The position numbers were made by a program, and so were the translations under genes. Of a stretch of DNA of 64,000 nt, positions 4,500-53,568 are shown piece after piece. The stretch is from Golubevia sp. BC0850 (lineage: Eukaryota > Basidiomycota > Exobasidiomycetes > Golubeviales > Golubeviaceae). Numbering within the stretch: the first letter of the stretch is position 1; the number at the start of each line of letters is the position of its first letter. The stretch is taken from contig JAAVVG010000004.1 of the NCBI GenBank assembly GCA_012976225.1, positions 806,001-870,000 of the forward strand, in the 5' to 3' direction. The notes under the pieces were generated by a model. The model saw only the letters and a list, made by a program, of their open reading frames with translations, searched no databases and was not told the DNA's origin.

Positions 4500-6390
4500 A
4501 TGAACGACATCCAAATCAAGCCTTCCAAAGACGAAACTAAGATTGCTCCAAACTTGGACTCCGTTCTGCAAGATGTCACAGAGGCAATCGTAGAACAAGT
4601 GAGAAGTTGAACAAACCAAGACGAAAGCGTAGAGGAGAGAGAGGCAAGCAGAAGATGAGTGTCATATACCCTCTTCTACAAGGAGCGGACTGAAGGAATG
4701 AGAGAAATGCTGATTCTTGAGTTGTCTAATCCATCGCAGATTGAGAGACTCTACTCTCAAGAGCGTCACTCTCCTTTGCACCAAGACTCATCCGATCTGG
4801 CAACGCAGCCTTCTAACTGAGGTCACCGTATCGCTAAAAGCCCTTCTATCTCTCTACGAATGTTTGGAACGAAACAGCGAAGGCTATGCTAAACTAGTCA
4901 AGTTGCTCAAATATACAGAATACTCAAGTATAAATGAAGAACTAGCAGGGTTCTTGTCCTTCTCTATTCTTCCAGCAGAAAACGGTGTTTCTATCCGAGT
5001 CAAAGATGGCATCAGCTTGGCAAACCAGTCATTTCTCCGAAAATTGTTCAATCTTCAATCACTGGTCATGCTGCATCCAGGTTTCATTCCTCTGTTACAA
5101 CACTGGGTCGGAGGCAAGTCGATTCCACTTCCTTTCTTCACTGGCTCTCTCAAGAGAATCTTCATTTCAGGAGAAAGCCCTGATTATTGGAATCACCTAT
5201 CAGCTAGAAATGTTATCTGGATCAGGACTAGCTGTTCAACGTCTGGCCGCTTTTGGTTTCACGATGAGTTCCGTTGAAGATTTCAACTTCCTATCAGAAT
5301 TTAAATCCTACTTCAAGGGTTTCTCAAACGTTACCCGATTAGCTCTCAGCGTTAGATTTGATTATGCTATTTCAGATAAGAGAACTTGGTGGGGTTTACC
5401 TAGAGAACAGGAAAAGGAGTGGATTGGTGGAAATAAGAAAACGGAGGCGATCTGGAATTTATTGCAAGTCACAAAAGAACTATCATCTTTGGAACTCTCA
5501 ATTAATAAGAACCAATTTCGTAATGTAGGAGATAACACAGAACTTCATCCAAGCTGTTTGTCCAGTCTCCATCAAAGCTTCAATTCTGCACCTTCGAACA
5601 TTTCCCATCATTCCTGATTATAGAGATTCCAATCTACCAATAAGTACCTTTTCCGTCTTGACAGGGTTGAAGCTCTGGTCACTGGATCTGTCAACTCTCG
5701 AAAGTCTCGACCCTCGTCGCCAAATCAAAATACCACCGAACGTAGATGATTTACGTCCCTTTTTATAATGCTCGATGTGTTAATGACCATCCTGCTTGTA
5801 CTTTCGAAGAGGAATATTACCTGCAGAATCTGCTTGAGTCTAGACCTTTCCCGAAGCTGTAAGTTGTTGGGGTACCGAAAGAGCCGGTGGCTAAAAATGG
5901 AGAGATCCATGACTCCGTAGGCGAGTTGGAGGATTGGGAGGGTCACAGACCAGATTTGGAGCAGTCAGAGATCTTCAAGAGTGGAAGGCTTACCCTGAGG
6001 GAGCTCGAACGAAGGGAGATGGGTGAGTGGCGATGTGTTGAAGGTTGCTTTTTCTTTCGCTGGATTCTTAATCTTTCTCCTCCCATGTAAATTCTCTCTT
6101 CCCTCTCTCAGTCGGGGATGTCTCGAAAGGAGAAGATTGCGTATCATCGTTCGAATTGATGTACCATTGGTGATCTAGACCAGTGTTCATGTGAGTTAGC
6201 CGATGAAGGTGGGCAACTGAAACAAGAACTCAATCAACTGACTGTTTTCAACACTTCACATGATTCTGCCGGTTTCCTTTTTAGGTTCATTTCAATCGGT
6301 CTCTGCTGCAACGAGTTCTCAATCACAAACGTCAGGCTAAGGTTCTTCTCCTCAGTGTTTTATTGCAGAACTGAATTTCGTCTCAGTCAC
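4500..6390 (+). pseudogene. Broken F-box-like gene, copy A
   Basis: This is one of three dispersed copies of the same gene. It opens with an ATG at 4500 and the PNLDSVLQDVTEAI segment, followed after an intron by LRDSTLKSVTLLCTKTHPIWQRSLL from 4735. Together these resemble an F-box-like helix set followed by a leucine-rich tail. The copy is decayed. The first-exon donor, AAG|GTGAGTG in copies B and C, reads AAGATGAGTG here near 4652. A stop falls in the first-exon frame, a frameshift lies near 5225, and a short deletion near 5590 shifts the frame again. Conserved pieces continue to the segment ending ERREMG near 6024, then an intron-like gap, then a shared tail with TAAGGTTCTTCT near 6342. 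F-box proteins normally recruit substrates to SCF ubiquitin ligases. A functional product is unlikely unless unusual splicing rescues it. Confidence 0.65.
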
Positions 6391-6785
6391 TCTCTTCGTG
6401 GGTCGTGGGAGCGTTTTGGTCCTGGAGAAGTTGAAATGAACTCGAGCTTACCGAGACTTGAGGCTTGAGGGATGAAGAGAACCGACAATCTGAGCAAATT
6501 TGGCAGCTGGCTGACTGCGAGTGATAGAAGATGTCAATCACCAGATCGAATCAAATTTCAGGTTTCAAAGGGGCTCGGTTCAACATTCGAGTGAGCTCAT
6601 CAATCTTTCCCTCAGATCTCATCGTTGCTTTCAAGCTCAAGTTGCACAAAGACAAACGAAACGGACTATAAATTCACGGGAGATACAAATCAATGTTAGC
6701 ACGTAATGATACAAGCAAAAATGTAGAGAGAGAGGAAAGCTTTGTAACAGAGGTATTAGGAGAAAACGTATTGTAAGCCACCAGC
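6391..6785. other. Gap between copy A and the XMAP215 gene, nothing recognised
   Basis: 395 bp with no convincing open frame. It probably holds the 3' untranslated region of the minus-strand XMAP215 gene and the eroded end of copy A. No transposon or RNA gene is visible. Confidence 0.5.
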
Positions 6786-9700
6786 TCAACTGACGAACTT
6801 GGCTTTCAGAGCAGCCAACCTTTCGTCGTTGGCAGAGTTGCGGATGCGACTTCCAGAGGGAGAGGGAGTTCCTTGAACGTCACCATTCGACATTAGAGAA
6901 TATCTGTTGGGAGGAGGAGAGGTCGGTACTTCCCCAGTTCCACCGACAGGAGGAGAAGTCAAACCAGCAGAGATGACGGAAGCCCTTGGAGGAGGACCTT
7001 CCGTCAGCATACTTGATCTAGTGGAATCGAGTACTCTTGATTCGCGAATGCTGGCACGTTCTGGTAAAGGGGAAGGGAAGAGAAGAAAAAGAAAAGATCA
7101 GCACTTGTAGAGTCAACAAACCGTCTACAACATGTCGCCACTCACTGTCGTCAGCAGCAGAAGCGTCTGGCACAGCATCTGGATCTTCTCTTTCGAGATT
7201 GGCCAGAGCCCGTTTGATATATCTCTGGAAGATTGGTCCGGTCTCTGCCAAAGCTCTAGAGACGCTGGCTTCCTTGTGAGGATACTTCTTCTGAAATTCG
7301 TAAAGATCCTTGATAGCAGGACGACTCTCTTCCTTGTGAGAGATACGCTGAAAGATGTTTTTAAGTTCAGCTCCAGTGTTGTCAGAATCGTCCGCAGAAT
7401 TAGAAGAGGGGGGAGACTTTGGAGACGAGATTGGCGCTCGTGTTGGATTTGAAGATCTTGTCTCAGTAAGCTTTTCTGCGGGCTGCTGTACTTCAACTTC
7501 GTCGTTATCTAGAGTATCGGCGAGATCCTCTCCAGCAACTGAAGTAGTGGTAGACTTAGAACGAGCGTGACCTTTGTCGGCATTCAATTGACGTAGAAGC
7601 TGATTGTAGACATGACTTTCGACTGGTTTCTCGATCAAGTCCAACAAGTTCAAAGCCTCCTCCCCATAGAATTCCGTGAATTTCTGCAGGAGAGCTTTGA
7701 GAGTTCTGAAAGGGTAGTCGGCCAACTGAGTCTTGTCCACCGCCCTCTGTTTCCATTCAGAGGGAGGGATGACTAGAAGGAAGTTTTCGATGTCGAGAAG
7801 GAGCTGCTGTGCATCAACCAGGTTGTCTTTAAAGGAATTGTCGAGACGCTTAGCGATCTTCCAAAGACACTTGATGATGAGCTCGGCGAACTTGGTGCGC
7901 TTCACCAGCAATTCTCCCTCTAGCTCGCGAAGGTCCTCGGTAGCCTCTGCCAGGATCGACAGGAAGACGCTGCGACGATGAGAAGAAAACAAAAAAAATG
8001 GTCAGCTGAGGAATAACTTGAAGGATCAGGGAGTCAAGAGAGCTGAAATACTCACGCGAAGAGAGCGTTCAAATTGCACGAACTGAAAGCCCTAAGAAGA
8101 AGGGTGTTGATGTTCTTGGCATAGGCTTGAGAATCTCGATTGTCTGTCTTTCCAGTAACGTGAATGAGACGCTGGAGGAGTTCCGTCATCAGAGGAACCA
8201 GAGCGGATCTGCTGATGAAGCTTGCCAACGTTCTTTCATCGTCGAAGACAGGCCTGCCGTCGAACATCATGTTGATCAGAATCAAGATGTGTTTTCTCAA
8301 CCTGTCAGCCTCAGGGCTACGGGCTTGATCTCCTTCAGCGAACGCTCTCCTGAGCTGCTTTGTACTGGCGCTTGCTAGTCTGTCAGCATGTCGAGCGAGA
8401 GAAGGAGCCGCTTCTTGAACGTCTTCCTCGAGAGTCTTGATGGCTGCGATACTCCTCTGCAAATCACTGCTGAGGATCTCGTTGATGGACTGCTCGATAG
8501 CAACATCGTCACTTTCGTCTCTGTAGGATTGAGACTGATCGGCCAAAGCTTCCTCATCTTTGTATTCCTCGTCGAGGTGGCTTCCGTTTCCGTTGGCTCT
8601 TCCATTTGGATCTTCATGAGCGTCTACCTCGAACTCTGAGTCACGTTTCAAAGCCTGAGCAGGTTCTGAAGGTCTAGAAGAAGGAGGTCGAAGACCGCTA
8701 GGAGCCGCTAACCTGCTCTTTGGAGGCTGAATTCCCGAAGCTGCGACAGAAGGTCTGGCCAGACGAGATGGCAACTTACTACCAGTAGTGGGGGAGGAAG
8801 AAGCGGCTGCGTTTGTCTTGATTCCACCAGGCGGCGAGAAGGTGCTTCCAGGTCTAGCAATGCTTGAGGCTCTACTTGCCGAAGCTGCAGGACCGGACGA
8901 AGGTCCACCAGTGGTTCTCTTGAGACGTTCTTCCAATAGAGACTTGTCCTTAGCAGGCAGAGTTCCGACCAATTTCCAGACGTCTTCTCCGACGATCTTG
9001 TAAGCCTCTCCTAGAGTCATCAAAGCGGCCGTTCGAACGTTGGTGTCCCTATCAGCGATCTGCTTTCCTATGATGGGCAGAGTCTTGGCTGGAACGCAGA
9101 CTTGAAGACCATTCTTAGCGAAGAGGTAACCGAGCTCGCTCAGACATTCCGTCCTTGTACGGGCGTTCTTTGAAGGTAGACCAGACTCGATGTAGTAGGT
9201 GAGGAGCTTGCTAGGTGGGAAGATGAAGGTGAGGTGACGGAAGATCTCTCTGATTCGGTCACGGAACTGAGTCTTCGCGTCACCGAACTGTTAGAGAAGG
9301 AGAAGTAAGAGAAGAGAGAGATCAGAATCGGCGGCGGGGGAAGATGCTCTGAACCTTCTAAAGGGACTGACTCACCTTCGCTACGAGACATGGCAGAATG
9401 CAATTGGCCTCGTAATCGCTCATGTGATACTGCTGAGACCTAAGCAGTTCGACTAGATGATCCAACACGTCTAGAGACTTGATAGTGATACTAGTGTTGT
9501 TATCAGTCAATCGGATAGCGACATACTTGAAGACCAGATCCGAGTTAGCCACAGTCCTAGCGATAGCGTCTTCAGGATCCAATCCATACTCTTCTTCAGC
9601 AAAACTAGGAGTTCCGATGAAGTTCGTCAACAGACCCAGAGCAGACAAGAAGTCTCTCTCGGCGTTGTGATCTTTCGAGAACATAGAATCGGTGAGGCTT

Positions 9701-12700
9701 TGACTCAGATGAGGTTCAGCTTGAGAGCGAAGGGTCTCCATGAGCTCTGGTCTTGGAGTTCCTTCGCTGCTGATCCAATGTTGACCACGAGCTTCTTTAC
9801 GCTCTCTTCCAGCTTTAGCTTTGCCTTCTGCTGTGATGAAAGGTGGAGTCTTGTCGACTGGAGTTGAAGATGAAGCAGCGGAGCTTGAGACTCCCACTCC
9901 AGGCTTCTTCAGTCCACCAAGCTTCGATTTGAATCCAGGAGCTGGGAGTCCTCGACTGTCCAGGTCATCAGAATCCAGTCTAGAGATCGGTCTCGATCCT
10001 GGAGCTTTGAGAGATCGCATAGCTGCACTGGCCAAAGGCTGCTTGCCGGCAGGTTTGGCGATGCTGCTATGACGAGGCGAAGATGGAGCAGGGGAGGACG
10101 AGCGAGAAGAATCATCGGCGGCTATCGCTGCTGCTATGGCAGGCTTCTTGATCGTAGCCGTTTTGACTGGCGCAGGAGCAGGAGCAGGAGCGGCGGGAGC
10201 TGGAGCAGAGGCTTTTGCCATTGCTTGAGCTTGAGTCCTTGCCGCGTCGATGAGAGGAGTGACTGAAGTTCTGGAGGCGGCTTTGAGCTGACCAGTCTGA
10301 TCGTTGACGAGCTTGAAACCAGCTCTGAGGATAATGTAAGGGAGAACAGCTTGAGCGGCCTTGCGTACTGCAGCTAGCTTGTCATCTAAGCACTGGACCG
10401 CTGAAGGAGCTAGAGGAGCTAGATCCATCGGCTTCTCTGGAGGATGAGCTGAAAACCAATCTCCCATCCAAGTGTAGAGCTCTTGACGAAGCATCGGATT
10501 GGCAGTCTTGGCATCCAATTGAGTTGCGAATCCAGAGATCATTGGACCTGCTCCTACTTGTTCTGCGATGGCAGTCAAAGCCGCAGAGGCGGAGGCTCTG
10601 ATTGGTGCTTTCGCGTCAGCTAGAACTTGAGCGATGGGACCTGCGAAAGCACGAGCGTGTTGATCGAATCCTTTGTTCATGGCAGATGCGATACGAGATA
10701 TGACGTCCAGAGCCAGATTCCTGACTGCCACGTTGCTGTCTGCGTATCTGAGCTTGAGAGGAGTGACCAGCTCTGTCATGCTCGGTTTGAGCCTCTGGTT
10801 AGCTTCCAGAATTCCTTGAAGCTCTTCCAAAGCCTCCTTTCTCTCTTTCCAGTTGGCATCTCCGAGTCTAGTTAGGATAGAAGAGGGGACCAACTTGTCC
10901 AGATCCACTCGAGGGATCAGATCGTCCAGAGCGTCTTCCTCTGCAGCAGCGGCAGCAGCAGCTGCAGCTCCTCCACCACCGGATCCTTTGCCTCCAGCGA
11001 CAGGTGGAGCTTTGTGCTCAGCTCCGAACTTGGTAGGCTCAGGACGATCGAGACCTGAAGCCTTCTCGATCTCAGCTTCTACAGAGGTCTTCAGCTGAGA
11101 GTTGAGATCTCCCAAGAAGGTGTTGATGGCTGGACCGATGAAACGACTGATAGTTCCGATGACCTTGGTAGCATTCGTCCTGACTCCAGCGTTGGCCGAC
11201 TTGAGACAGGCGATGAGATGATCGATGATTCCACGCATGTCTACTCCAGTAGTTCCAAAGTCGAGAAGAGATTGATCCACCCAAAGGAGAGAATCGGCGA
11301 TGGCTTTTGGTGCCTTCAGAGAAGCTAGAGGTCCCAGAGCCTGAGCCAGAACGAATCCGTAGGAGGTCTTCTCGGAGTAGACGTTGAGAGTCTCTCCAGC
11401 CGGTCCTTTGAGCTTGATGTCTCCTAGCTTGTCGCAGAGAGGTTGTACTGAAAGAGCGATCGAAGACCTGCCAAAGGTTGGGCATTCTTCGGCGAGAAGT
11501 TGAAGGACCTTGTAGACCTCCGATAGGACTTGGAAATTGCTCTCCTTCCAGCCAGGTTTCTTCGCTAAAGATCGTAGAATGACTTCTGACTCAATCGTCT
11601 CCACCTCTCCTTTCAACCAAGTCAGAAGTTCAGTCATTCCACCGAGACGTTCCTTCCAGACTCCACTAGCGATTTGAGTACTGATAGCCACAGGGATGAG
11701 TTCAGCTGCTCTGGCTTCGGCGTCTTCTGAGCTGAATCGATATTTGACAGGTTCGGTGGCAGCGGCAGCCTTTCCACTGGCAGCACGAGGAGCTGAACCA
11801 CCAGCAGCTGCTGGCTTCTTGGCTGTGGAAGTAGAGGCAGCAGCAGGGGCTGGCTTCTTCGCCTGAAGAAGGAGAGAAGGAAGAAGTCAGCAGGCGCTCG
11901 ATCTCCATGTAAAGAGTTTCTCCGACCCTCTCGTCACTCACCATCAACCTAGCTGGAGGCTTTGCTGCAGCAGGCGGAGCAGCTGCCCGAGGAGCTGGAG
12001 ATTCATTCTCCTTATCACCCATCACCGGCTTCTTCGGAGCTGGAGCAGCAGCTTTGGGTTTGGCAGATGAAGGAGCAGGTTTCTTTGGAGCAGCAGTCGC
12101 AGACGGAGCCGCTGAAGCTGGACCTCCCATCTTTGCCTTGACAGTAGCTACCTTGAATTCTTCCTGAATCTTCCCTTTCTTGATATCGTCCATTCCATCC
12201 AAGAATTGATTCATCGGTCTTTCTCCAACCAACTTCATCAGCGTTCCCATCCCTTGCCAACCTGCTTCTCTCACATCTCCACTCGCATCATTTGAAGCGA
12301 TTACTAAAGCGTCGGCGATAGGTTTGATATCTACTTTGGCAGGAGCAGTTCTCGTCGTCCTGAGACATCTAACCAAGAACCTGATAGCTTCTGTCTTGAC
12401 GTTTGGATTCTTGTGTTTGGTAGCTGCGAAGATATCTTCTAGAACTTCCGAGAATGTGACAGTCTGAAAAATGGCATCTAGAGTCTTGGCTAGAACTTCT
12501 ACTGTAGAAGCTTTCTTCTCTTTCAACTTCTCTAGAATGGGAGGTAGAACTTTCTCTTTGTATTTGGAGAAACCAGTCCTTAAACCCTTAGCCATAGATT
12601 CGATACATCTACAACATTCCAGAACAACGTTGATATTTGAGTCCTTGGCGATCTTGGTCGTCAATTGATCGACAACAGAATCATAACCATTATTCATTAG

Positions 12701-14509
12701 AAGTTTGGGTGAAGAATTGAGAGCTTTCCCTAAAGCTATTAAAGCTTCTTGCCTCTCTTGCCATTTTTTCGAAGCGAGAAGTTCATCGAAATTTGAAGGG
12801 AACTCTTTTGACTTGAAGGGATCGATCGGTTCAGCTAAATCGAAAGCATCGATTTCACCTCCTCCTTCTTCCTCTCCTCCATCTTCACTTGCTTCTCCGG
12901 AACCTCCCTCTCCAGAAGCTGCTGCAGCTGCTTCTTCAGCTTTGAGCTTCTCCGATAAAATGAACCTCTCAGGAACTGGTTTGCCTTCTCCTTTCTTGTC
13001 TAGTTCTTCGAATTGAGCTCTTAGTTCTTTGGCTTGAATGTCCTTGAGGGTATCTATCGTCGGTTCCAAAGCTGCACCAATATATCGATGAAGTTCTTGA
13101 GCTAGTAGAGAGCCTTCAGCTCTAACTGTCTTATCTGAGTGAGCGAAGATGGTCGGTAGAATCTTGAGAATCGGTTTGGGTGAGACTTGTCTTGGACCGA
13201 AAGCTTTGACCATATCCTTCAGAGCTGTAACACAACTTGCGACTAGCTTTGGCTGCTTGGCTTTTAATCCAGCACATACGTCTTCCTGGAAGTGGTTTGA
13301 AGGAGATGGAAGAGCGGGTTGAGCTTCGCTTGCAAGACAAGAGGTTGCCTTTCACTCCTTTGCAAATTACTCACTACTGGACCTTCACTGGTCATAATAT
13401 CTTCCATCTCGACGTACAGAAGTACGATCTCCAAAGCAGTCTTCTTGGTTCCAGCACGAGTTGAACCTAGACATTTTTCGACTATCGAGGGTAGGACAAC
13501 TTCTCTCGTCCTGATTGGAGAGGAAATGAATAGAAGACAGGGGTTAGATGAATACTAGAAAGAGAAATTCCCATTACTTAATGAACCTCAGAAGTTTGAA
13601 ACAAAGTTCCAAAGCAGTCGGAAGGGATCAAGAAGCTCAAGCGAAGTAGCTCCTCCTCCCTCCCTCCTGAGCTGCCTCATCTGTTCCTCCCGATCCTCCT
13701 TCTTTTTGCCTGTTCCATAAACGAGTTCCAAAAGTCCCACTTGGACCTATCCACCTCCTCCCTTCCTATATGCCTCGATCTCAACTCACTTTCCAGCAGC
13801 CTTCCCACCAAATTCCACAAAAGCCTTCAAACATTCTGCAGCCTTCTCCTGAGCCACCGCGTTGGCATCCAATACCATAGCTTTCAACAGGTCCGGGTTC
13901 CTAGTGTAGGTCTTGAAGATTGGATCTTGCTCTGAAGAGGAACGAGAGAAAAGAGAGGAGAGCTCTGTGTAGGCCGAGAGTCTGGCTTTCCACACCTGAG
14001 TGACGCGGGGGAAACAAGGAAGAGGGGTTAATAAGATTTTGTGAACCTAGATACGTGGCGATGAGAGGTTCAAAGCTAGAGTTGGCCTCGTTGGGAGGGA
14101 GATAAGACAAGTGAGTAGAGATGAGAGTCTCAAACTCCCTCGCTTCCTGCCCTATCGACAACGAGGCATTTCTCTGATGATACCAATCATGTGAAATTCA
14201 GATATCACGATCCAGATCTCTCTGGGGAGAGAGGGTTATCTAGGGATAGGTATCGGAGGCTTTTCTTGCAAGTTGCCCCTTCCACTTCCTTCTGATCAGC
14301 TGCTCCCTCTTCCATTGTCCATCTCTGTCGCTCCCTGATGCATGGACTTATTGATCGAATATCTCCAAGTGAGCAGAAAGGTCGGTGAACAGGTTGGGGA
14401 GACTGACCTTTGAGCTTAACCTCTGTTCTATTGGCATTTTACTGAAATCCTCCTCACTCGGTGGTGCTCCAGTCATTCCACCAGATCCAGAAGATGGGAA
14501 CTCATCCAT
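6786..14509 (-). CDS. XMAP215/Dis1/Stu2-family microtubule polymerase
   Basis: Eight exons: 14509-14408, 13995-13790, 13510-13375, 13285-11942, 11862-9376, 9287-8056, 7969-7122 and 7060-6786. All phases agree and give about 2,209 residues. TOG-type HEAT arrays open with recognisable motifs: VWKARLSAYTELSSLF near residue 35, KKWQERQEALIALGKAL near 290, SGVWKERLGGMTELLTWL near 640, ANWKERKEALEELQGIL near 915 and the RERKEARGQHWI region near 1250. These correspond to TOG1 to TOG5. A C-terminal helical region contains AIKDLYEFQKKYPHKEASVS. Ala/Pro/Lys-rich linkers separate domains, as in the microtubule-binding linkers of the family. Family members bind tubulin through TOG domains and speed plus-end growth in the spindle and at cytoplasmic arrays. 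The ascomycete yeast members have only two TOGs and 800-900 residues, so this is a long, animal-like form. The donor of the seventh intron (GTTTGT) is the least certain. Confidence 0.93.
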
Positions 14510-15028
14510 GACGATTGATTCAGGTTAGATTGTTGTACCTTGCTGATCTTGTTCGGTTTTTGGGGTTGAGGTTGGATTAGAGGAAGAGAGGGTGAAGGAT
14601 TGAAGGAAGTGGGTGGCTTGTTTGCTTCAAGTCTATGATTCCTGCCTTGATTTGAAGAGCGAATTGAGTTTCGGTAAGTAAAGACTGTCTTGAAGGATGC
14701 TGAGAAGGTTGTAATGTACAATCACTTAAAATCTTGAAATGGTGTTGTTGTTGAATAACATCACATGAAGAGAACGTCCACGCGTCTTCTTTCTAGAATA
14801 TTCTGGCCCTCAGCTCCAACGATCAGGCAAAAGAACCGTATGGCGTCTAGCCTTGATTGAGAGAATACGAACAACTTTCTGAACAAATGACACGGCCCTG
14901 GAATTTGCTAGAAGAACATCGATTTGGATAAAACATGAGCTGACTGATGAGGCTCCTTCCTTCCTCTCAATTTTTCTGTTTCCTGTTCCTACAGTGTTTA
15001 CTTATGAGAAGGGGATCTAACTTCAACT
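14510..15028. other. Gap upstream of the XMAP215 gene, nothing recognised
   Basis: About 520 bp between the XMAP215 start codon and the module downstream of copy B. The part near 14510-14720 is likely promoter and 5' leader of the XMAP215 gene. No other gene or repeat is apparent. Confidence 0.5.
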
Positions 15029-15388
15029 AGGATTGCTTTTGAGAGCGAGACTCGAGAGAGGCGAGTTCATGTCCTTGACGAGATGAAGCTCCTCACTTTC
15101 AGGGATGACACCACGAGTCTTAATATCGAGACTCGCCTCTGTTCTGAAATCTCAGATCAAAGAGCAAAAAGAACCAGAAGTCAAATCCGTCCTTCTGGTC
15201 AAAAGTGGCTTCAAGCGTTCGGAGATGAGAGAAAATCTTCAAAGCTCGTCGTCCAAAGTTTCATGATCTCTAGAAAGAAGCAAGATCCAATCCTCGCATT
15301 CTTTGTCAATGTCACCTCCTTTGGGTTTTCAAAAGATTCAAACCATCTTACAGCCAATCTAAGGATAACATTGAGACAAATTGCAACT
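15029..15388 (-). repeat. Shared downstream module of the F-box-like family, copy next to B
   Basis: This block is closely similar to 53569-53921 and lies in the same orientation relative to its F-box-like neighbour. It starts after an acceptor-like CTTACAG and ends at the same point, GCAATCCTAG, in both copies. Shared text includes GGTGTCATCCCTGAAAGTGA and GAGTCTCGCTCTCAAA. Open frames exist on both strands. The antisense one (plus strand, 15083-15394) reads KLLTFRDDTTS and SSKLVVQSF, and its counterpart reads KLLTFRDDTTG and PSELVVQCF. Whether it is a last exon or 3' region of the F-box-like gene or a separate element is unresolved. Confidence 0.6.
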
Positions 15389-16954
15389 CTGTAAGAAGGA
15401 ATGAAAGAACCTTAGACCGCTTTCGTCTTCGGAGTAAGAGGCTGAGAAGCGATGTAGCAGTACCACTCTTGAAGATTTCTGACCTCTCGAGCTCTTTCCT
15501 GCGTGTCTCCCAATCTTTTCTGTCTTCCTCAGAATCATGCACCTCTCCATCGAAGCTCATCGATTCCTTTGGTACTCCAACCACTTGCAGTCTAGGAAAA
15601 GGTCTAGGAGTGCGAACTGAGGATAGATAGCACTCTCCCATAAAACTTGACCAGATGCTGCCCTCAGTCACTTCATCAGCCCCGTAGCCAGGGATGTACA
15701 TCATCGCTAGATTTGGGGGCGTACACATTTGCTTGTAACGATGAAAACAGGCCAAGATATTGATTTCTAACGAACAAACCTTAAGCGATTGAAGGAGACC
15801 GTAATTAGTGGAAGATAAATCTGTAAGATCTGAAATAATGCTCATGATTCGAATGTGCTTCAGAGTATTGAAACTTTGACGAAGAGCCAACAAGCAGCTT
15901 GAGTGAAGAGGAGATGAATCTTCTGGATTACAATCCTGGTCTCGGAAGCAAAGCTCTAATGATGACAATTGCTTTGTAGTTTGAAATAAATTCCAGATCA
16001 ACGCTGTCTTTTTATTCCCTCCGATCCATTTCTTATTCTGCTCTCTAGGTATACCCCGCCAAATCTTTTGATCCGACTCTTGAAAGACACATCTAAACCT
16101 CAGAGCCAATTGAGTATCGTTAGACAAGCCTTTGAAGCTAGATCTAAATTCTGATAAAAAGTTGAAGTCTTCAATAGAGCTAATGCCGAACACGAATGCG
16201 GCTTGTCGGACAAAACGTCATAATCCAAACTACATTCCTCGCTGATAGGCAGTTGGAAAGGTCACCTCCCATCGAAATGAACTTTTTTAAGAGACTTAGT
16301 GAACAAGGTTGGGGGGACTGACTTTCCGTCCACTCGGTGTTGAACTTGAGGAATAAGATTCGGAAGGAAGATGATGAGTGATTGAAGACTTCGAAGCTTC
16401 ACAACTATAAATTGATTCACTACTTGCGCACCGTCTCTCAACCTTCCTACTGATCCTGGATTAAGGCTCGAGAAGGTTGTGAACCTTTCAGCGGCTGCCC
16501 GTACTTCTGGATCTGTACCCGCCGAGTACTCCTTGTGCTTGTATGTGAGCGATTTGATGAGTCCGCCATAACCTTCGCCATTTCGCTCTAAGCACTCATA
16601 AAGAGATAACAAGGTCTTTTGAACAATGGTGAAGTCCGACAGAAGGCTGCGTTGCCAGATCAGATGAGTCTTGGTGCAAAGCAGGGCGACGCTCCTGAGA
16701 GTAGAGTCTCTCAATCTGCAGAAGAGGAGAAAGACAAATCTGTCAACCACTCTTTGTGTGTCTGACTGTGATCAGCGGAAAAGCTATGCTAGCACTCACC
16801 TTCTCCTTTCCTCTCTTTCTCCTACGCTTTCACTCAAATCCGCCCAATCTCTAACATGCTTCGCGATTGCCATCGCTACATCTTCTGGAATAGTTTCCAG
16901 GTTAGGAGAGACCTTGTCTTCTAGCTTTGATTGATTGACTTGAAGATGATCCAT
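15389..16954 (-). pseudogene. Broken F-box-like gene, copy B
   Basis: Exon 1 (16954-16800) starts MDHLQVNQSKLEDKVSPNL and contains IPEDVAMAIAKHVRDW. A GTGAGT donor joins it in phase to an exon from 16715 reading LRDSTLRSVALLCTKTHLIW. The combination looks like an F-box-like domain: a short IPEDV..AI helix, then the CTKTHxIW element. The first two exons are intact, but the frame breaks near 16262. A second lesion of about 8 bases near 16210, relative to copy C, removes part of the CPTLRQAAF motif. The next open part carries FGISSIEDFNFLSEF and a leucine-rich tail to ERSEIFKSG. Relative to copy C, about 330 bp is missing after that point (near 15450). It is most likely a pseudogene; a truncated N-terminal protein remains possible. 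Confidence 0.65.
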
Positions 16955-17203
16955 TCTTTGAGAGAGATAAGTGAATGTTCGGAAGGAACAAGCAGAGCAG
17001 AAGAATTCCTCTCCTTCAAAAGGTCAGTGAAAATTCAACTACCTAAAAATGCCAGATCATGGCAACAAGCTGAAAGAAATACTTCTACACTTCTATCAAG
17101 ATCGTCAAGGCGATGTAAAGTTCATTCAAATTGTAATGTATATTATCATGCTCAAATCCCCCTCTCTCCTCCTTGAATTTTCTTTCTATAATTCCAACCT
17201 CTC

Positions 17204-31479: not shown

Positions 31480-31517
31480 TTTCTCTCTCTCTCTCTCTCC
31501 CCCCCTCCCTCCCCCTT
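31480..31517. repeat. CT microsatellite and C-rich tract
   Basis: A (TC)n run of about 19 bases followed by a C-rich stretch, in the 280-bp gap between two converging genes. Simple repeat. Confidence 0.8.
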
Positions 31518-31525
31518 CTGTCTGT

Positions 31526-36383: not shown

Positions 36384-41768
<5,385 letters not shown>

Positions 41769-41925
41769 CTTCCTGATTCTATTCCACTCAACTCTATTTC
41801 TGGTTTCACTCCTCAATAGAAGGTGTTGACGATTCGAATGATTGCTATCGAGGCTTGGTCTCTTCTCTTCTCTTCCAACTTTCGCTCTATAGCCTTATAG
41901 CCTCTTCCCACTCATCCATCCACTC
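41769..41925. promoter_or_regulatory. Shared upstream region of RPC1 and the METTL4-like gene
   Basis: 157 bp between divergent start codons. It is pyrimidine-rich toward the plus-strand gene. A bidirectional promoter is inferred from layout only. Confidence 0.45.
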
Positions 41926-43814: not shown

Positions 43815-44124
43815 AATCGAATATTCATTTTCAGGGGATACAAATGAAATCAAGGGCTTAGTTTGAGAGAAGGTATGGTTTTGGCGACCACAGCAAAATT
43901 CTGGGCTTGGAAAAGAGAAAATGGTTTGTCTGTGATGCTGATTTGGACATGAACGAGCTTTTTGGACTATACGAGAAAACTGGAACACTGAAAGGGTCGA
44001 AAAAGACCAATTTGAGATCTGCAGACATTAGAAAGGAAAGATCGAGATTGAGATCGATCAGCGTTCTGTCTGGGTCCAGAGTCTCGGCTAGCCTACGTGT
44101 GTGTAACTCACCCTTCTTTTGAAA
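43815..44124. other. Gap between the METTL4-like gene and the next minus-strand locus
   Basis: 310 bp containing the 3' end of the METTL4-like transcript. No open frame with gene-like features was seen. Confidence 0.45.
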
Positions 44125-44744
44125 CTAGAACCAAGTCCGGTAGTGACGGAAAGAAGATAGCGAGTTTTTGAGGATCGAATGATGACCAGGTTCCCATATG
44201 ATTGCAGTAACAATCCCCAAGACTTGGACCCTACTACAACTCTCAGAGAATCTAGAAGCATGTTCGTCCGACCCGACGACTTCACTTGGTTGCAGTGCAC
44301 AATTTACGATACGATAGATTTCATTGACTGACGCTCCATTGAACACCCTATGCCTTGATCCTATGAAACTCAAAAGATGATGAGAAGCGATCGGAGAAAG
44401 AGCTCTTTTGGAGTTTCCCATGCTGAGGGTCACAGAAGTCAACTTCGGAAAAAGGATCTCGTTCTGCATTCCAGCCTGCTTGCCCTCAGTCGACACAGGT
44501 GTGAGTAAACGAAGGAGGTTGGTTCAGTACCCTCCCGATTCTTCGCGAATCAGATCTCCTCTCCCTCAAAGTCTTCTGGACTACTTACTTGGGTACAGAT
44601 CTGTTCCGTAGTCTTAAAATCCATTCGATCCAAAGCATTCTGAACTTGAAGAGGAGAGAGCTGTTCTGGAATGCCTCCTTCCTTCCGCTGCTGTTTCGAT
44701 GGTCCCCCTTCAGTTTGAGAGTCGTCGTTTGACCTCTTTGACAT
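44125..44744 (-). CDS. Small F-box-like protein or remnant
   Basis: A possible two-exon gene. Exon 1 (44744-44589) starts MSKRSNDDSQTEGGPSKQQR and contains LSPLQVQNALDRMDFKTTEQ, which has the spacing of an F-box first half. A CAA|GTAAGT donor follows. The second exon to 44125 reads NEILFPKLTSVTLSMG, then leucine- and serine-rich sequence ending HYRTWF, like the start of a leucine-rich tail. The acceptor (after ACTGAG near 44480) is not a strong one, and the product, about 170 residues, is short for an F-box protein. It may be a truncated family member. Low certainty. Confidence 0.35.
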
Positions 44745-44811
44745 TTGAAAAGATTGAAAGCGTAGTTGGATAGTCCGATAGATAGTAGTAGTAAGGTCCG
44801 ACCCTTTTCAA

Positions 44812-44818
44812 TATAAGG
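44812..44818 (+). promoter_or_regulatory. TATA-like box upstream of the PLP enzyme
   Basis: TATAAGG lies 77 bp before the ATG at 44895, in the 150-bp gap between divergent start codons. Motif match only. Confidence 0.35.
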
Positions 44819-44894
44819 AGGGAAAGTTTTGAATTTTGATCGCAAGAGAATTTTCAAATGCTCATCCCAAGTCCAACTTCATCAAGCCGAAAGG

Positions 44895-46655
<1,761 letters not shown>

Positions 46656-47093
46656 TGTGGAAAGAACAGATGAATTGGCAGAACGAGAAAAATGTAAGCG
46701 TTATAGAAATACTCTAGAATCATAGATGTGTTTATTTAGAATTCAGAAGCTGCTTTTTTGGTCGAAAGGTTTCCCATTTGTGAATGATGAAAATAAAGGT
46801 ATACGAAGTGAAGTCTGAGAAGGTTTAGAAAGCAAGCAACATGATAGCAGAGATGAATTCCAGATGAGAAGGTGGATGAGAGGGAGGGAGAGAGACAGAG
46901 AGACAAGGCAGATGAAAGAGAGAGAGAGAAAGGGGGAATGTAGTGACTTTAGGCAGAGAGCTTCAAAAGCTCAACGTCCCTGGACTTGCTGTCGACACCA
47001 AGTGAAAACTACTCAAACAAAAAATAAGGAATTGTAAAAGGAGAACAAGGTCAGAAATATAACTAAAGGAGGTCACTCTGCCAGAATCGATTC
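46656..47093. other. Gap with purine-rich (GA) tract
   Basis: 438 bp between two converging genes. 46865-46940 is dominated by GA repeats. The rest is probably 3' untranslated sequence of both genes. No gene seen. Confidence 0.5.
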
Positions 47094-48476
47094 TCAACGA
47101 AACTCACGATCGTCCTGTGCCTTCAAGTCATTTGCTTCCTTTGGAGCTTGACCAGGTTGAGCCCAAGGAATCCTGTATTTACCTCCAAAATCAGCTCCTT
47201 CCGGAGATGTTCCAGCGTGAAGTTGAGTAATAGCACCAAATGGAGCGGGATATAAAATGAAGGGCCCTAGATACTTCATGATGTAGTATGAGAATCCAAA
47301 GATATTACGAGTGATTTCAGTTTTGATTCCTCCAGGATCTACTGAGCAGCTGCAGAGATGATAGAGAAGAAGATGAGGGTGTCAAAGTCGACAAGACCCC
47401 ACAGGAGACCTGCCCCTGCTAACTGACGACATGATCAACACTCACCAAACAATCCCATCTTTTCCAAGCTCCCTATCGAATTTGTTTGAGAGAATAATAT
47501 CGCAAAGCTTGGAATGAGCATATCGCCTAATGACAGTCCATTCTTCCCATCGATTCATTAACCAAGCATTTTCCCTTTTCAAAGTCGGATCTTTCAGATC
47601 GAAACCTCCCATTTGAACAGCCATCATTGACATGCTACTAGATGTGTAAATTACTCTAACTGAATTCTTGGCAGTTAGAGGGACGGTTTTCTTCAGAATT
47701 GGGACCAGTAGTTGGGTGAGATAGAAATGGCCTAGAACGTTGGTAGCCATGTGAATCTCGATCCCTTCGGTACTTTTCATGTCGGCCTGTGGTAGGTAAA
47801 AGATCTTTCAGGTCAACGATGCGAATCTAGCCCAAAGGGAAAGCAGATCGGAGAGCCAAAGATAGAGAGCTTCATCCCAGAGAAATTGGCTTACAGTTGG
47901 CGCGCTGATTCCACCTGAACAAAATAGCAAGTCCAACCTTTCAGAATTTCTGTTAGAGAAATTTGAGATCGAGAACAAAGTTAGCGAGACTCTTTGCGCA
48001 AAGCAATGTTGCTTGTTCAGCCACTCACTCTGAGAACTCTTCAGCCGCTTCCTTGACGCTTTGCAGTGAAGCAAGGTCACATTTCAAAAAGACCAATTCA
48101 TACCCTTTGATACCTTCTTGATCCAAAGAGCTTCTTAACCGAACGATAGCTTCTGCTGCTCTCTCTGAAGAACGACAGGCTAGGAAGACCTTGCAACGTT
48201 TTCTGGCCAGAGCGAAGGCTGTTTCGTAACCTGTGAAGAGATGGTCGAAGCGTCGATGTTCACACGTTCACTCATTCAGAGTTCAGAAAAGGTGGAACTG
48301 CTCACCGATTCCAGCATTGGCTCCTGTCACGATGGCCACCTTGGTATGAAGGTCGGGAATATCGTTCGAAGTCCACTTAGGGGCAGATCTGGAAAGGGAA
48401 GAGGCGCTGGTCTTAGCTGCAAGTGAACGATTGGAAAACGATTTGAAGTAACTTACGGGAATAGCGAGGCAATCAT
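47094..48476 (-). CDS. Short-chain dehydrogenase/reductase
   Basis: Six exons: 48476-48457, 48388-48306, 48230-48029, 47949-47895, 47786-47446 and 47349-47094, giving 318 residues. A classical-type Rossmann fold is seen: VAIVTGANAGIG (residues 24-35) binds NAD(P), and CDLASLQSVKEAAEEF follows the third strand. The strand-4 motif is LDLLFCSGGISAPT, where most members have NNAG. NVLGHFYLTQLL, the catalytic serine strand RVIYTSSS, and Tyr209-x3-Lys213 in YAHSK follow, then VDPGGIKTEI. The pattern is closest to retinol dehydrogenase or WWOX-like reductases. The substrate is unknown. Its start codon is only 55 bp from that of the UCS gene on the other strand. Confidence 0.85.
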
Positions 48477-48531
48477 TTGTGATTGGAGCGAGAGAGCTAG
48501 TCAGGATGGAAGAGGCGAGAACGAAAGGAGA
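48477..48531. promoter_or_regulatory. Very short gap between divergent SDR and UCS genes
   Basis: 55 bp separates the two start codons as annotated, or 121 bp if the UCS protein starts at the next Met (48598). A shared promoter and overlapping leaders are inferred. Confidence 0.4.
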
Positions 48532-51504
48532 ATGAAGATCGAAGCTTTTGACAAGTCACCTCTCCTCTTCCCAACCACAACAGCCACGTTTCAAAGAATG
48601 ACTGTAACCGACCAAAGTATATCGTCAGTGGATCAGATGCAGAACAGCGATTCTCTGGTAGAGTCACTGACTCTTCAAATCCAATCTCCGCCTCAGCAAG
48701 TTTCATCAAATTTGATTTCTTCTCCTTCCAACCTGAACCTTTATCTTCAAGCTCTTTCTCCAACAGCTCCAACCAAAGCCAGACCTCTAGCTCTACTTTC
48801 ACTTTCTCAATTAATAGCTTCAACTGCCAGCGTAACAGATGACTCTTCCACTTCTTCCATTTCTTCGCTCTTTGGTCCTTTCCTGATTCAAGCCTTGAAA
48901 CAAGAGCCAGAAAATCAAGACTGCCTTCAATCATTATCAACTAGGATTTCAATCATTTCACTACTCACTGCTATCTCCGCTTTGGATCCCAAAACTTCAA
49001 CAAATCTGCTCTCAGATCCAACTTCTTCTATCCCGAACGAATCTGCAAAATTCCAAGAGATCTCTGATGAGCAGCCAATACCTTCTGGCGGATTCGGACT
49101 ACTGTCGGAACTTCTCTTTTTATCTACGACTTTGGATGAAAACACGGGGGTGAAAGAGGAACGGCCCTTACGAGATCTCTCCAACTTCTGCTTGACAGAA
49201 CTCATCTCCACTTTGGCTTCTTCCAGCTCTACCAGGAAACTTCTAGTCGATTCCAAAGTACAAGATTTCCTTCAATCCCAAGTCAAGAGCTCTGATAGTG
49301 ACATTCAGTCTAAGACTTCTTTACTGGCATCATTAGCAGAACTAAAGATTAAGAGAGGATCCAAGAGCTCAGATTTACCTCAGCCTCAATCTAAGATCGA
49401 TCCGATGAAGGAGAAAGCTAACGAATTATCAATTCTGGAAAATTTGTTTAAATTGTCGAGGACGGAGATCATCCAGGTCGCAGAGAACAACCCTTCTGCA
49501 ACTTCAATTCCTCCTTCTATCTGCTCTGAAGAGTTCTTATTTGAGGTCTCTAGAACTTCGACCCTAACCTCTTTGGAATCGCTTTCTCATCTCTCTTTAC
49601 TTAGGAGAAGCTTCAGAGAGAAAATAGCAGGCGATCAAATCTTAGTCACAGCGGTACTAAAGATCAGTGGTAACAAAACTAGATCTAAAGTCTTTCCAAC
49701 TAGAGTGGAAGGTGAATCAAAGGCTTCTACCTCCTCCTCATCTTATGATTTAGATTCAAGGTTATCGAAATTAGAATTAAATGATGATGAACGTAAAGAC
49801 ATCTCCATTCAATATGGAATAGTTTCATTAATTTCAAATTTAGTGACTTATTCCCACACAAGACTAGGAGCTGAACACTCCAAAGAACAGGCTCAAATGA
49901 GAAAGCTAAAAGAGATGGCAAATGGGAAGTCTAAGTCAGAAGGAGTTGATGAAGATGAAACCGAAGACGATCCAAATCAATTGGTAGATAAGAGATCCAC
50001 TTCTTTAATCCAATCAGGAGCAATTCAAACTCTAGTTGGAATCTTGTTCACCCCGGATCTGAATGGGAAAACTTCAATCAGTCCATCAGCTGCAATCAGG
50101 AAAGAAACTTCGAAGGCGATTTATGGATTATGTGTCAAACAAGACAGGATGAACAGAGGGAAGATCATTCAAGAAGGCGGAGCTAGAGCTTTGTTATCTC
50201 TTGGAGCTTTGGATTTAGCCACTAACAATCAAGCCATCGAACAGGGATCGAAGGATGGAAGTCAATCCATGGAAGTAGCTGATCTAGATCTCACAGCCTG
50301 TTCTGCTTTATCTTTACTGCTGATATCTCATCCTCCTCAAATGGTGTTAGGAGTTCAATCTTCAATCACTTCAGTCTTACCTTTAATTACTGCTCTTTAT
50401 CTATATCCTACTGCAACTGATTTACAAAGATTTGAAGCTGCTTTGGCTCTGACCAATCTCTCTTCTTTGGATGAAAGCGCTGCTACTAAGGTTGCTACTT
50501 GTAAAGCTCCTCCAAGGAAAAAGGAACCCGGATTTCTAGATTCCAAAAATAGAGAAGAGTCAAATGAGAGAGTGATAACGATAGGAGATTCTTTAGAAGC
50601 TTTGATATTGTTGGAGAATAATTTGATGTTAAGGAGAGCTAATGTCGAACTGCTTTGCAACTTAGTAGCTGGAGATGAACAGTTAAGGAAGCTTTGGTCC
50701 GGTGAGAAAGAACACGAAGCTTCTAAGTCAAATACAGAGCCTATCCCTGAAGGGCCTACCAGAAGCAGGACGAGAATTCACGCTCTCATTGCATTCTGCT
50801 CCCCAGCCTCTTCGAAGTTCAGTTCTTTAAACGAGAAAGAAACGGCCAATAACGTCTCTCTACCTCTAAGGTTAGCTGCTTCTGGTTCTTTAGCTGCTTT
50901 AAGTGAATCTCAAGTCGCCTGCTCTCATCTACTAGCTTTAGGTCCAAGAACTTTGAACCACATAGTTAGATTGATCGATTTAACAGTAAAGGAAGATCTA
51001 GAAGGTTTCAAATTGGAAGAAGAAGCTAAAATCAAAGAAATCAAAGAAGAAGAAGATCAATCAACTCCAGAAAAAGATGATGAAGAATCAGAAGACCTAG
51101 ATGAATCTGAAGAACTTCAACTACATCTCAAAGAATTGAATTCCTGGCCTTTAGGGTCTTCCCATGCACTTTCCTCTCTGAACCTTCGAGGATTAGCTAT
51201 TTCTGCTTCTCTAGCTTCATACCTTTCTTGGAGATCTTCAAAGAACAAGAATGGTAAATCTTCTCAGGGGATCGGGTTTGGAAAGGAGAAGGAAATCTTT
51301 GTAAGAGCTGGATTTGAGAAAGCTGTGAATGGGTTGGTGAATAAAGGGATTTCGGATTTACAACAAGAGAAAGGAAGGATCGAAGCTGGGAATGGGAAAG
51401 CAAAAAATCCGATTGAAAATCAGATTGATGCGATGAAGAAGCAAGGTGTTAAGATGGGGATTAAGATTTTGAAGGTTTTGAAGGAGGTTGGGGTCAATTC
51501 TTGA
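48532..51504 (+). CDS. UCS-domain myosin chaperone (UNC-45/Cro1/She4 type)
   Basis: A single uninterrupted frame of 990 residues, the only clearly intronless long gene in the window. Residue 1 is at 48532; Met23 at 48598 is an equally good start. The protein is a helical ARM-repeat solenoid. Diagnostic parts are ISIQYGIVSLISNL near residue 420, AAIRKETSKAIYGLCVKQDR near 520, IIQEGGARALLSLGAL near 545, RFEAALALTNLSSLDESAAT near 630 and LMLRRANVELLCNLVAGDEQ near 700. These match the UCS domain, which folds and stabilises myosin motor heads and links them to actin-based processes such as cytokinesis and endocytosis. The N-terminal TPR domain of animal UNC-45 is absent, as in other fungi. An acidic insertion (EEDQSTPEKDDEESEDLDES) lies near 845. 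The protein is somewhat longer than the yeast forms. Confidence 0.85.
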   Translation: MKIEAFDKSPLLFPTTTATFQRMTVTDQSISSVDQMQNSDSLVESLTLQIQSPPQQVSSNLISSPSNLNLYLQALSPTAPTKARPLALLSLSQLIASTASVTDDSSTSSISSLFGPFLIQALKQEPENQDCLQSLSTRISIISLLTAISALDPKTSTNLLSDPTSSIPNESAKFQEISDEQPIPSGGFGLLSELLFLSTTLDENTGVKEERPLRDLSNFCLTELISTLASSSSTRKLLVDSKVQDFLQSQVKSSDSDIQSKTSLLASLAELKIKRGSKSSDLPQPQSKIDPMKEKANELSILENLFKLSRTEIIQVAENNPSATSIPPSICSEEFLFEVSRTSTLTSLESLSHLSLLRRSFREKIAGDQILVTAVLKISGNKTRSKVFPTRVEGESKASTSSSSYDLDSRLSKLELNDDERKDISIQYGIVSLISNLVTYSHTRLGAEHSKEQAQMRKLKEMANGKSKSEGVDEDETEDDPNQLVDKRSTSLIQSGAIQTLVGILFTPDLNGKTSISPSAAIRKETSKAIYGLCVKQDRMNRGKIIQEGGARALLSLGALDLATNNQAIEQGSKDGSQSMEVADLDLTACSALSLLLISHPPQMVLGVQSSITSVLPLITALYLYPTATDLQRFEAALALTNLSSLDESAATKVATCKAPPRKKEPGFLDSKNREESNERVITIGDSLEALILLENNLMLRRANVELLCNLVAGDEQLRKLWSGEKEHEASKSNTEPIPEGPTRSRTRIHALIAFCSPASSKFSSLNEKETANNVSLPLRLAASGSLAALSESQVACSHLLALGPRTLNHIVRLIDLTVKEDLEGFKLEEEAKIKEIKEEEDQSTPEKDDEESEDLDESEELQLHLKELNSWPLGSSHALSSLNLRGLAISASLASYLSWRSSKNKNGKSSQGIGFGKEKEIFVRAGFEKAVNGLVNKGISDLQQEKGRIEAGNGKAKNPIENQIDAMKKQGVKMGIKILKVLKEVGVNS

Positions 51505-51799
51505 AGAACGGGGAGTTGTCGTTATTTTTTGTTGTTTGGTTTTGTCTTAGTTTGATTCCCTCAATTGAATGAGAATCAGAAGCGATGATACTTCCTCAGC
51601 GTCTTCATCGGTTCCGAACGCCATCCCCTCTGCACTCTCTGCACAGTAGTGACTTTCTCCACGATGAGGGGGAGGCTTGAGATCTGCTCCATCATTTAGG
51701 GCTCGCGTTTGGGAGAATTCCTCAAAGAGCAGATTTTTGACTTTGCTTCTTTCTTCTCGAACATTCAGTCCTTTTCTACTTCAAAACCTTGATACCAAG
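51505..51799. other. Gap between the UCS gene and copy C
   Basis: 295 bp. Likely the UCS 3' untranslated region and the old upstream part of copy C. No direct or inverted terminal repeats were seen at the edge of copy C. Confidence 0.45.
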
Positions 51800-53568
51800 A
51801 TGAAGGTTAAGATTTCTTCTAATCTGGATTCCATTCCAGAGGATGTCACAGCAGTCATCGTCAAGTTCGTAAAGGCCTGGTTAGATTTGGATGGAAACTA
51901 AAAGGAAAGGGTGATAAAGAGAAGGTGAGTGACTGAGGATCAGCACATATCTTCGAATCATGCTCGGTCGATCAGAAAGTAATTGAAGGTCATTATTCCA
52001 TTTTCCTCTCGGATTGAGAGACTCGACTCTCAGAAGCATTGCTCTGACTTGCACCAAGACTCGTCCGTTCTGGCAACGCAGCCTTCTAACTGAGGTCAAC
52101 GTATCACTAAAATTTTTTAATTTTTTTTTTGAATGCCTGGAAAGGAATGGAGAAGATTATGTCGTTATTGCCCTTCTCTCGCCTTCAGTCTGAATCAGCC
52201 GACCTTACATCTCAATTCGAAGATGGTCTTCAGACAGTGAATAAATCAATCCTCGGAAGGCTTCTCAATCTTCAATCACTCATAATCATGAATCCGTTTG
52301 TCGTTCCTCAACTTCAACACCGAGTCGGTGGAAAGTTAGCTCCCCTCCCATTCTTCACAAAATCTCTCAAGAGAATTTTCATTCCAGTGGAAGTTGGTGA
52401 TCATGATTCCTCAAGGTTTTCGTCAGCTAGGGACATCGTTTGGATTCTTGTCTTCTGTCCAACTCTTCGCCAAGCCGCTTTTGGCCTCTCCATCAGTTCC
52501 CTGGAAGACTTCAACTTTTCATCCGAATTGAAATCTATCTGATCAAAAGACTTCGTGGGGTTTACCTAGAGAGCAGATTAAGAAATGGATCGGAGGGAAT
52601 AAAAAGACGGAATCAGTTTCGAACCTACTTCAGATTACCAAAAAGTTATCCTCGTGAGAACATTCCTTTTTGAACACGAGTCGTAGTAATCCTGGAGATG
52701 AATCTCTTCTTCACTCAAGCTGCCTGTCGGCTCTTCATCAAAGTCAAAGCAGTTTGAAGCACCTTCGCCAACTGGGTTTGTTTCCAGAGCGTGAAAAAGC
52801 ATCTTCTACCAATATTACTCTCTTCCAATCCCTCAAAAACTGGTCCTTGGATTTGACATCTCTGTTCCGTTTTCGCACCCACATCCAGAAGAGCCTACCT
52901 CCAAACTTAGAGACCATTTACATCCCTAACTATAGTGCCGGCGATCTAACTTAGGGCCATATTACGTCGAGATTCATAGAGTAAAATATTATCTATCTTC
53001 GGTGCTTGGTTCTAGATTCTTTCCTAGATTGAAAGTAGTTGGAGTGCCAAAACAACGAGTGGACCAGGCGGAAGGAGACCGGCATGATCCTGAGAAAGAC
53101 AGAAAGAAAGGATTGGAAGAGACGCAGGAAAGAGCTCGAGAGGTCAGAAATCTTCAAGAGTGGCAGAGTCACCTTGAGAAAGTTCGAACGAGGAGAGATG
53201 GGTGAGAGGCGATGTGTTTGAAGATTGCTCTTTCTTTCGCTCAACTCCTCATCTTTCCCCTTCCATGTTTTTCTCTCTTCTCTCTCCCTCTCTCAGTCGG
53301 CGACCCTTTGAAAAGTGAAGATTGTGTATCGATGGTCGAATGGATGTACCCTTGGTAGTCTCTGGTAGTGCCTAGTGAGTGAGCCAATCAATTCAAGGTG
53401 AAGAGTTTGAATTGACTGAAAAGAGTTCCAACTCGTGTTCAATCTGTCTAAGGATTCTCTCGCGTTCTTTCGCTTCACCCCTACTAGTCTCTGATACGTC
53501 GCTCCTCAGCCTCTTACTTTGAAGACGAAAGCGGTCTAAGGTTCTTCTGTTCTCATTACTTCTTGCAG
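51800..53568 (+). pseudogene. Broken F-box-like gene, copy C
   Basis: The start at 51800 reads MKVKISSNLDSIPEDVTAVI, homologous to the first exon of copy B, but a stop (GGAAACTAA) falls in frame at 51901, before the GTGAGT donor. The second exon starts with LRDSTLRSIALTCTKTRPFW. It contains a T-rich replacement at 52111-52130, where copies A and B read a leucine-rich helix, and then breaks. A third open stretch covers 52140-52542 with NLQSLIIMNPFVVPQLQHRV and CPTLRQAAFGLSISSLEDF, ending early. Further pieces keep the SLKNWSLDLTSLF, PNLETIYIPNYSAG and RLKVVGVPK parts of the leucine-rich tail. The intron-like gap after ERGEMG and the shared tail up to the acceptor TTCTTGCAG at 53568 match copy A. 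Several independent lesions make it a clear pseudogene. Confidence 0.75.

Follow-up and report, generated by a model that had tools for sequence, protein, structure and literature searches.

A large family of F-box-like leucine-rich repeat genes with many apparently recently broken copies in Golubevia sp. BC0850

F-box gene families with many pseudogenes have been described in plants and in nematodes. The plant F-box (FBX) superfamily is huge and holds many pseudogenes, a pattern treated as 'genomic drift' (PMC3030570), and about 260 F-box genes, with many pseudogenes among them, are given for Caenorhabditis elegans (PMC5041008). For fungi, a table row on fungal genomes holds ten PF00646 counts ranging from 3 to 43 (PMC4469406). 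The subject of this work is a set of three broken copies of one F-box-like gene, found in a stretch of 64,000 nucleotides of the Golubevia sp. BC0850 genome (25.77 Mb, 64 contigs). This stretch, called the window below, corresponds to positions 806001-870000 of the contig referred to as C44 and has a GC content of 44.8%. The three copies belong to a family of about 170 loci, and they are explained with good confidence as pseudogenes of a large F-box-like leucine-rich repeat (LRR) family, recently and mostly independently broken, probably after selection was relaxed.

The likeness to the plant superfamily (PMC3030570) lies in a very large family, with lineage-specific members in plants, in many pseudogenes recognised by frameshifts and premature stops, and in relaxed selection on these. 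Unlike in plants, the family described here is found in a 25.8-Mb genome, broken copies dominate the loci read, profiles recognise no F-box, and the copies of one clade are scattered along a single contig. The F-box genes of C. elegans and C. remanei offer a similar likeness (PMC5041008), with species-specific expansion, regional clustering, and many pseudogenes in C. elegans; however, the nematode clusters were defined by a spacing below 10 kb, whereas the copies of the clade on C44 lie about 8-108 kb apart and two dead copies have a conversion-like tract in common. In contrast to the 3-43 PF00646 counts of the fungal row (PMC4469406), at least 150 places in this genome exceed the Pfam cut-off for a different profile, F-box-like PF12937, with 150 of the 390 candidates scored.

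Three broken copies in the window

The original prediction, made from the letters of the window, was of three dispersed copies of one F-box-like gene, all broken and in both orientations. This was borne out by a self-comparison of the window, in which every pair of the three shows piecewise matches of 65-87% identity, with the orientations +, - and +, and by a frame- and intron-aware aligner, which placed lesions in each. Copy 1 extends over about 4500-6173 (+), copy 2 over 16954-15462 (-), and copy 3 over 51800-53358 (+); locations and strands had been given correctly, while the predicted ends at 6390 and 53568 take in 3' flank. The motifs said to be common to the three are present on reading, except that the CPTLRQAAF segment is incomplete in copy 1 and has been partly lost from copy 2. 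All three keep the family layout of an exon 1, a phase-2 intron and a long exon 2, and a short exon 3 follows in copies 1 and 3. The aligner finds three frameshifts and three in-frame stops in copy 1, two frameshifts in copy 2, and four frameshifts and three stops in copy 3. Relative to copy 3, copy 2 is also incomplete at its 3' side: the end of exon 2 is missing, as are intron 2 and exon 3. The features are as follows.

4500..4660 (+): copy 1 exon 1, which holds in-frame stops at 4608 and 4656 and corresponds to the first half of the F-box-like region
4661..4739 (+): copy 1 intron 1, phase 2, GT-AG, placed by the aligner
4740..6022 (+): copy 1 exon 2, LRR part, with frameshifts near 5243, 5585 and 5745 and a stop at 5860; exon end set by eye
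6112..6173 (+): copy 1 exon 3, VGD..KGED.. tail, terminal TGA; bounds set by eye
16800..16954 (-): copy 2 exon 1, open, with an ATG start
16716..16799 (-): copy 2 intron 1, 84 nt, phase 2, placed by the aligner
15462..16715 (-): copy 2 exon 2, with frameshifts near 16282 and 16206; 3' portion missing relative to copy 3
14953..15460 (-): 3' flank of copy 2 that matches the one of copy 3, 78% identical
51800..51924 (+): copy 3 exon 1, with an in-frame stop at 51899
51925..52012 (+): copy 3 intron 1, placed by eye from its relatives; the aligner instead took an upstream AG, with the end at 51988
52013..53201 (+): copy 3 exon 2, with frameshifts near 52161, 52537, 52984 and 53108 and with stops at 52655 and 52952; exon end set by eye
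53297..53358 (+): copy 3 exon 3, open, terminal TAG; bounds set by eye
53491..53993 (+): 3' flank of copy 3 that is common to copy 2, the only two such places found in the genome

Intron 1 is kept in all three copies, and positions 52011-52012 of copy 3 read GG, by eye, at the site of the AG acceptor of copy 2. No identical lesion common to any of the three was found. Copies 1 and 2 have deletions in one stretch (profile columns 227 and 229) with differing lengths, the distance between the landmarks on both sides being 33 bases in copy 1, 30 in copy 2, and 38 in copy 3.

Family size, breakage and exchange between copies

A DNA search of the genome with copy 3 returned 45 matches, 42 of them within C44:810-1250 kb. 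Protein searches reach further, with at least 147 matches to the C-terminal portion of copy 2 (147 of 228 candidates scored), at least 118 to exon 2 of the complete member L050 (99 of 393 scored), and at least 128 to L054 (111 of 327 scored), five of the latter places being new. When same-strand rows less than 1500 bases apart were merged from the searches with copy 3 (entered as eight ranges), copy 2 and L050, at least 165 loci on 36 of the 64 contigs were obtained, a number raised to 170 by the L054 search. One locus, L018 (C44:965500-973500), is counted twice in this total; it has undergone an internal rearrangement and carries its 3' part inverted beside the rest.

In the tree, read by its topology with branch support not inspected, the three window copies (W1-W3) sit in a clade of 14 loci together with L014, L016-L019, L021, L023-L026 and L028. 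Thirteen of these lie at C44:811-1249 kb, with other genes intervening between the copies within the window, while L019 is on the contig C61. The clade has spread across about 440 kb of C44 and reaches a second contig with a single copy.

A total of 50 loci were read as DNA, made up of W1-W3, a set of 20 regions (19 on C44, one on C61), the 20 best matches on other contigs, and seven picked as the most intact-looking. Lesions were found by the profile aligner in 46 of them, amounting to 96 frameshifts and 75 stops distributed along the whole gene. Two loci, L050 (C10:15035-17496) and L055 (C63:95350-97350), read as complete genes without a lesion, their exon ends and exon 3 being set by eye. 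The other two lesion-free loci are incomplete: the L054 match is 5'-truncated and does not reach into the F-box-like part, while L020 is a fragment of about 87 residues. Among the matches listed for L050 exon 2, only L050 itself covers all 422 residues in a single frame without a stop, and every other near-full match has at least one. This is not proof of breakage, because some members carry an extra intron there, as is the case of L055. Such an intron inside exon 2 is seen in L051, L052, L053 and L055, which form one subgroup, and the one in L055 is at another place than in the remaining three; this appears to be a case of intron gain or loss inside the family.

The aligner rarely invents lesions. 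Lesions were called with the family profile only, since two spurious frameshifts called in L050 with a single sequence as query disappeared with the profile. Out of 120 intact genes simulated from the profile, 115 were free of lesions and five had one each; these genes are 31% identical to the majority letters of the profile, compared with 46% for the real loci, most of which were used in the profile. The natural complete genes came out free of lesions as well, both L050, which is part of the profile, and L055, which is outside it. Programmed frameshifting was ruled out, as the lesion positions differ among loci and span the entire gene. With regard to a changed reading of stop codons, all three stop codons are seen inside the matches and frameshifts are equally common. 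A stop at column 312 that seemed common to L017 and L019 was dropped because the codons differ (TGA and TAA).

The number of stops indicates when the frames were lost. The test took 32 of the 50 loci, leaving aside 18 because the nearest relative was too distant, the match was too weak or short, or, for L040, the locus was a duplicate of L033. These 32 loci contain 51 stops, compared with 268 expected if they had been dead since the split from their nearest relative, and 65 frameshifts. The frames were therefore kept for most of the time since the split, and death was recent. Deep pairs are constrained at codon position 2, with divergences between L050 and L055 of 0.52, 0.36 and 0.66 at positions 1, 2 and 3. 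The young pair of copy 2 and L016 is near neutral, with 91, 75 and 101 differences by codon position (p=0.07), and L033 and L040 are likewise near equal (5, 5 and 7). The Ka/Ks comparison suggested with the original prediction, run pairwise, was uninformative for the three window copies alone, whose ratios of nonsynonymous to synonymous divergence (dN/dS) are 0.18-0.32 at a near-saturated dS of 1.1-2.0; the ratio is about 0.4-0.6 in close pairs. In the sampled loci, the loss of the frames was mostly independent from copy to copy.

The way in which the copies multiplied is indicated by their introns and flanks. The 3' flank of about 500 bases common to copies 2 and 3, for which no third place was found in the genome, the upstream DNA common to L020 and L024, and homology ends that vary from pair to pair among the C44 loci point to segmental duplication. 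The family has hence spread by duplication at the DNA level, with introns retained and pieces of flank carried along. Despite their common flank, copies 2 and 3 are separated in the tree, where copy 2 groups with L016 and L024 and copy 3 with L023; a mosaic origin of copy 2 is possible.

Tracts are also exchanged among copies, with one clear case. L026 (C44:1215558-1216143) and L028 (C44:1248435-1249020) are 100% identical over 586 bp, whereas the flanking 50-base windows are mostly 50-80% identical; differences by codon position are 0.000-0.005 in columns 54-245 and 0.23-0.44 outside. Both lesions common to the two loci fall inside the identical tract, which is best read as ectopic gene conversion between dead genes. 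In L033 and L040 all four lesions are common and identity is 98% across 2.1 kb, so that this pair arose by duplication after death. In the 50 loci read, no tract was seen to have passed between a dead copy and an intact one. The original claim that the copies decayed separately after duplication therefore stands for the window copies, which have no identical lesion, and fails for these two pairs.

That claim had been part of a wider proposal, a fast birth-and-death family with possible live members elsewhere, which the genome supports. The window copies are not the sole members, paralogues occur both as complete genes and as dead copies, most of the latter with lesions of their own, and some of the youngest copies change in a near-neutral manner. 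Birth and death holds at a scale larger than the original three, that of a 14-copy clade within a family of about 170 loci.

The predicted protein

The members of this three- to four-exon family, of which the window copies would be pseudogenes, are predicted to encode F-box-like LRR adaptors of Skp1-cullin-F-box (SCF) ubiquitin ligases. The F-box identity had been assumed in the original prediction, and it failed every sequence test that was run. The complete L050 protein gave no PF00646 or PF12937 match in Pfam at E values up to 10, and no Pfam match to an F-box was obtained for 16 of the 17 lesion-free N-terminal pieces (L051 was omitted), in a search where HMMER filters discard most weak matches. 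The N-terminal profile aligned to an F-box profile with an hhalign probability of 1.3%, the latter profile being built from five sequences, and the sole aligned stretch comprises 16 columns, the LPxE part. A profile search of the PDB with the N-terminal region returned five weak matches and no F-box protein. To the eye, the stretch from exon 1 into the beginning of exon 2 resembles an F-box split by a charged loop and an intron.

The likeness to F-box proteins lies in fold and layout. The AlphaFold2 model of L050 exon 2, which excludes the N-terminal half of the F-box-like region, has a mean confidence (pLDDT) of 84.8 and a predicted template modelling score (pTM) of 0.86. All 17 Foldseek matches in the PDB at E<=0.001 are LRR proteins, and ten of the 17 are F-box/LRR ligase subunits, including FBXL17 in 6wcq and FBXL3 in 4i6j. 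The predicted model has the F-box/LRR layout, with an LRR solenoid C-terminal to a short N-terminal domain. A predicted LRR-type solenoid that follows a short helical N-terminal part is also the likeness to COI1, TIR1, FBXL17, SKP2 and MAX2 seen in the PDB fold matches. Unlike these proteins, the family has no detectable F-box signature, and the matches are distant, with identities of 10-14% and low TM-scores of 0.17-0.47, which together with the failed sequence tests speaks against a true F-box. The family is probably best called F-box-like by layout and fold, rather than a proven F-box family. The most likely role, judging from fold and layout, would be that of an SCF substrate adaptor, the short N-terminal region serving to bind Skp1 and the LRR solenoid to bind the target of ubiquitylation.

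An F-box that Pfam does recognise clearly (PF12937, E=4e-8; PF00646, E=2.4e-6) occurs in a separate gene piece at 58736-59158 (-) of the window, about 5 kb downstream of copy 3.

Competing explanations and what the family may mean

The strongest competitor, although an unlikely one, is ordinary steady birth and death, in which dead copies are frequent but quickly deleted and selection has not recently changed; it differs from the explanation given above in the last step only. Plant and nematode F-box families are rich in pseudogenes (PMC3030570, PMC5041008), and the loci read are biased to one local clade and to near relatives. However, if copies have been dead for about one fifth of the terminal branch (51 of 268 stops), a steady state would leave most of them alive, yet 46 of the 50 are broken, including members of clades far from that of the window, which suggests a recent change. 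Most probably, much of the family has recently come under relaxed selection in this lineage, one genome being compared.

Several points weigh against a recent, family-wide loss. The sample is not random, as 43 of the 50 loci are window copies, neighbours of these on C44 or top-scoring matches to copy 2, and the other seven were selected for an intact look, two of them being complete. Six of the 171 lesions are double-counted (four shared by L033 and L040, two by L026 and L028). L051, counted among the 46, is doubtful, with a lesion-free model that costs 19 half-bits, and the next weakest calls are L047 (51), L042 (53) and L048 (66 half-bits). Among the 66 copy 2 matches that cover at least 200 of the 260 C-terminal residues in one frame, 25 are free of stops, so the roughly 120 unread loci may hold further live genes. 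A small excess of third-position differences persists in 11 of 16 young pairs (p 0.0003-0.04), although a modest excess is expected if copies were alive part of the time. The argument from a surplus of dead copies is weakened both by the biased sampling and by conversion between copies, which could have skewed the numbers, and a recent change in selection behind the surplus of newly broken copies among those read is therefore proposed with moderate confidence.

It is improbable that unrecognised introns restore the frames and leave most copies functional. The extra exon 2 intron of some members and the cheap lesion-free models of the four loci just named would fit such introns, whereas the remaining 42 lesioned loci cost at least 65 half-bits, mostly more than 100. 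Introns restoring an unbroken frame had been set as a check on the original prediction, and forcing a lesion-free model with GT-AG introns only made the window copies 334, 125 and 323 half-bits worse (copies 1, 2 and 3); a rescuing intron is least excluded for copy 2. The aligner picked lesions even though a GT-AG intron is cheaper than a frameshift (penalties of 14 and 18), and the required introns would excise stretches that are coding in other members.

A still smaller chance is given to the copies being parts of a gene-carrying transposable element. The many dispersed copies in both orientations and the clade member on another contig would agree with it, but the varying homology ends of the C44 pairs offer no common ends, in a comparison where terminal repeats and target-site duplications were not specifically searched, and the 3' flank of copies 2 and 3 occurs at two places only. 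Slightly less credible again is a role for the dead copies as a silent archive, from which the few intact genes would draw variant tracts by gene conversion out of more than 100 broken relatives. Pseudogene archives exist in antigenic-variation systems, and the 586-bp tract of L026 and L028, two dead copies, shows such exchange to be possible.

Errors of assembly or base calling in otherwise intact genes are very hard to credit. Nearly all sampled copies are affected, for which a single systematic error could account; nevertheless, 75 of the 171 lesions are in-frame stops, only 4 of the 96 frameshifts are by homopolymers (background 4.9%), copy 2 lacks a whole 3' segment, and two family members are complete. 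The genes near the three copies point the same way. Open frames of 842, 902 and 1025 codons occur in the window, and the RNA polymerase III RPC1 gene is unbroken over its matched parts, the two ends lying outside the matches. Its three open reading frames match PDB 5fj8_A in order at 107-707, 706-967 and 1056-1308, and 7a6h_A at 109-691, 691-989 and 1005-1240. The other neighbours are an XMAP215/Stu2-like gene and, identified by eye, a gamma-glutamyltransferase gene. The conserved genes are rich in introns, in keeping with a basidiomycete fungus. Retroposition, suggested by the dispersal of dead copies, is contradicted by the retained introns, with intron 1 modelled in 14 of 14 clade members, and is practically negligible.

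Pseudogenes of a recently relaxed F-box-like LRR family therefore remain the preferred explanation. What sets this case apart is how large the family is for a compact genome and how great a share of the loci read is recently dead; no report of such a family in a fungus was found among the literature titles and abstract openings covered by a limited search. Large gene families are mostly observed either thriving or long gone. This family of about 170 loci seems to have been caught dying, with frames that are mostly readable, few, recent and mostly independent lesions, and few complete genes left. For annotation, gene predictors may split or truncate the broken copies and report them as genes, and Pfam misses the members tested. 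For the biology of the family, the question raised is whether a whole adaptor family can lose its purpose at once, for instance with the loss of a partner or a lifestyle, or whether random drift accounts for the pattern.

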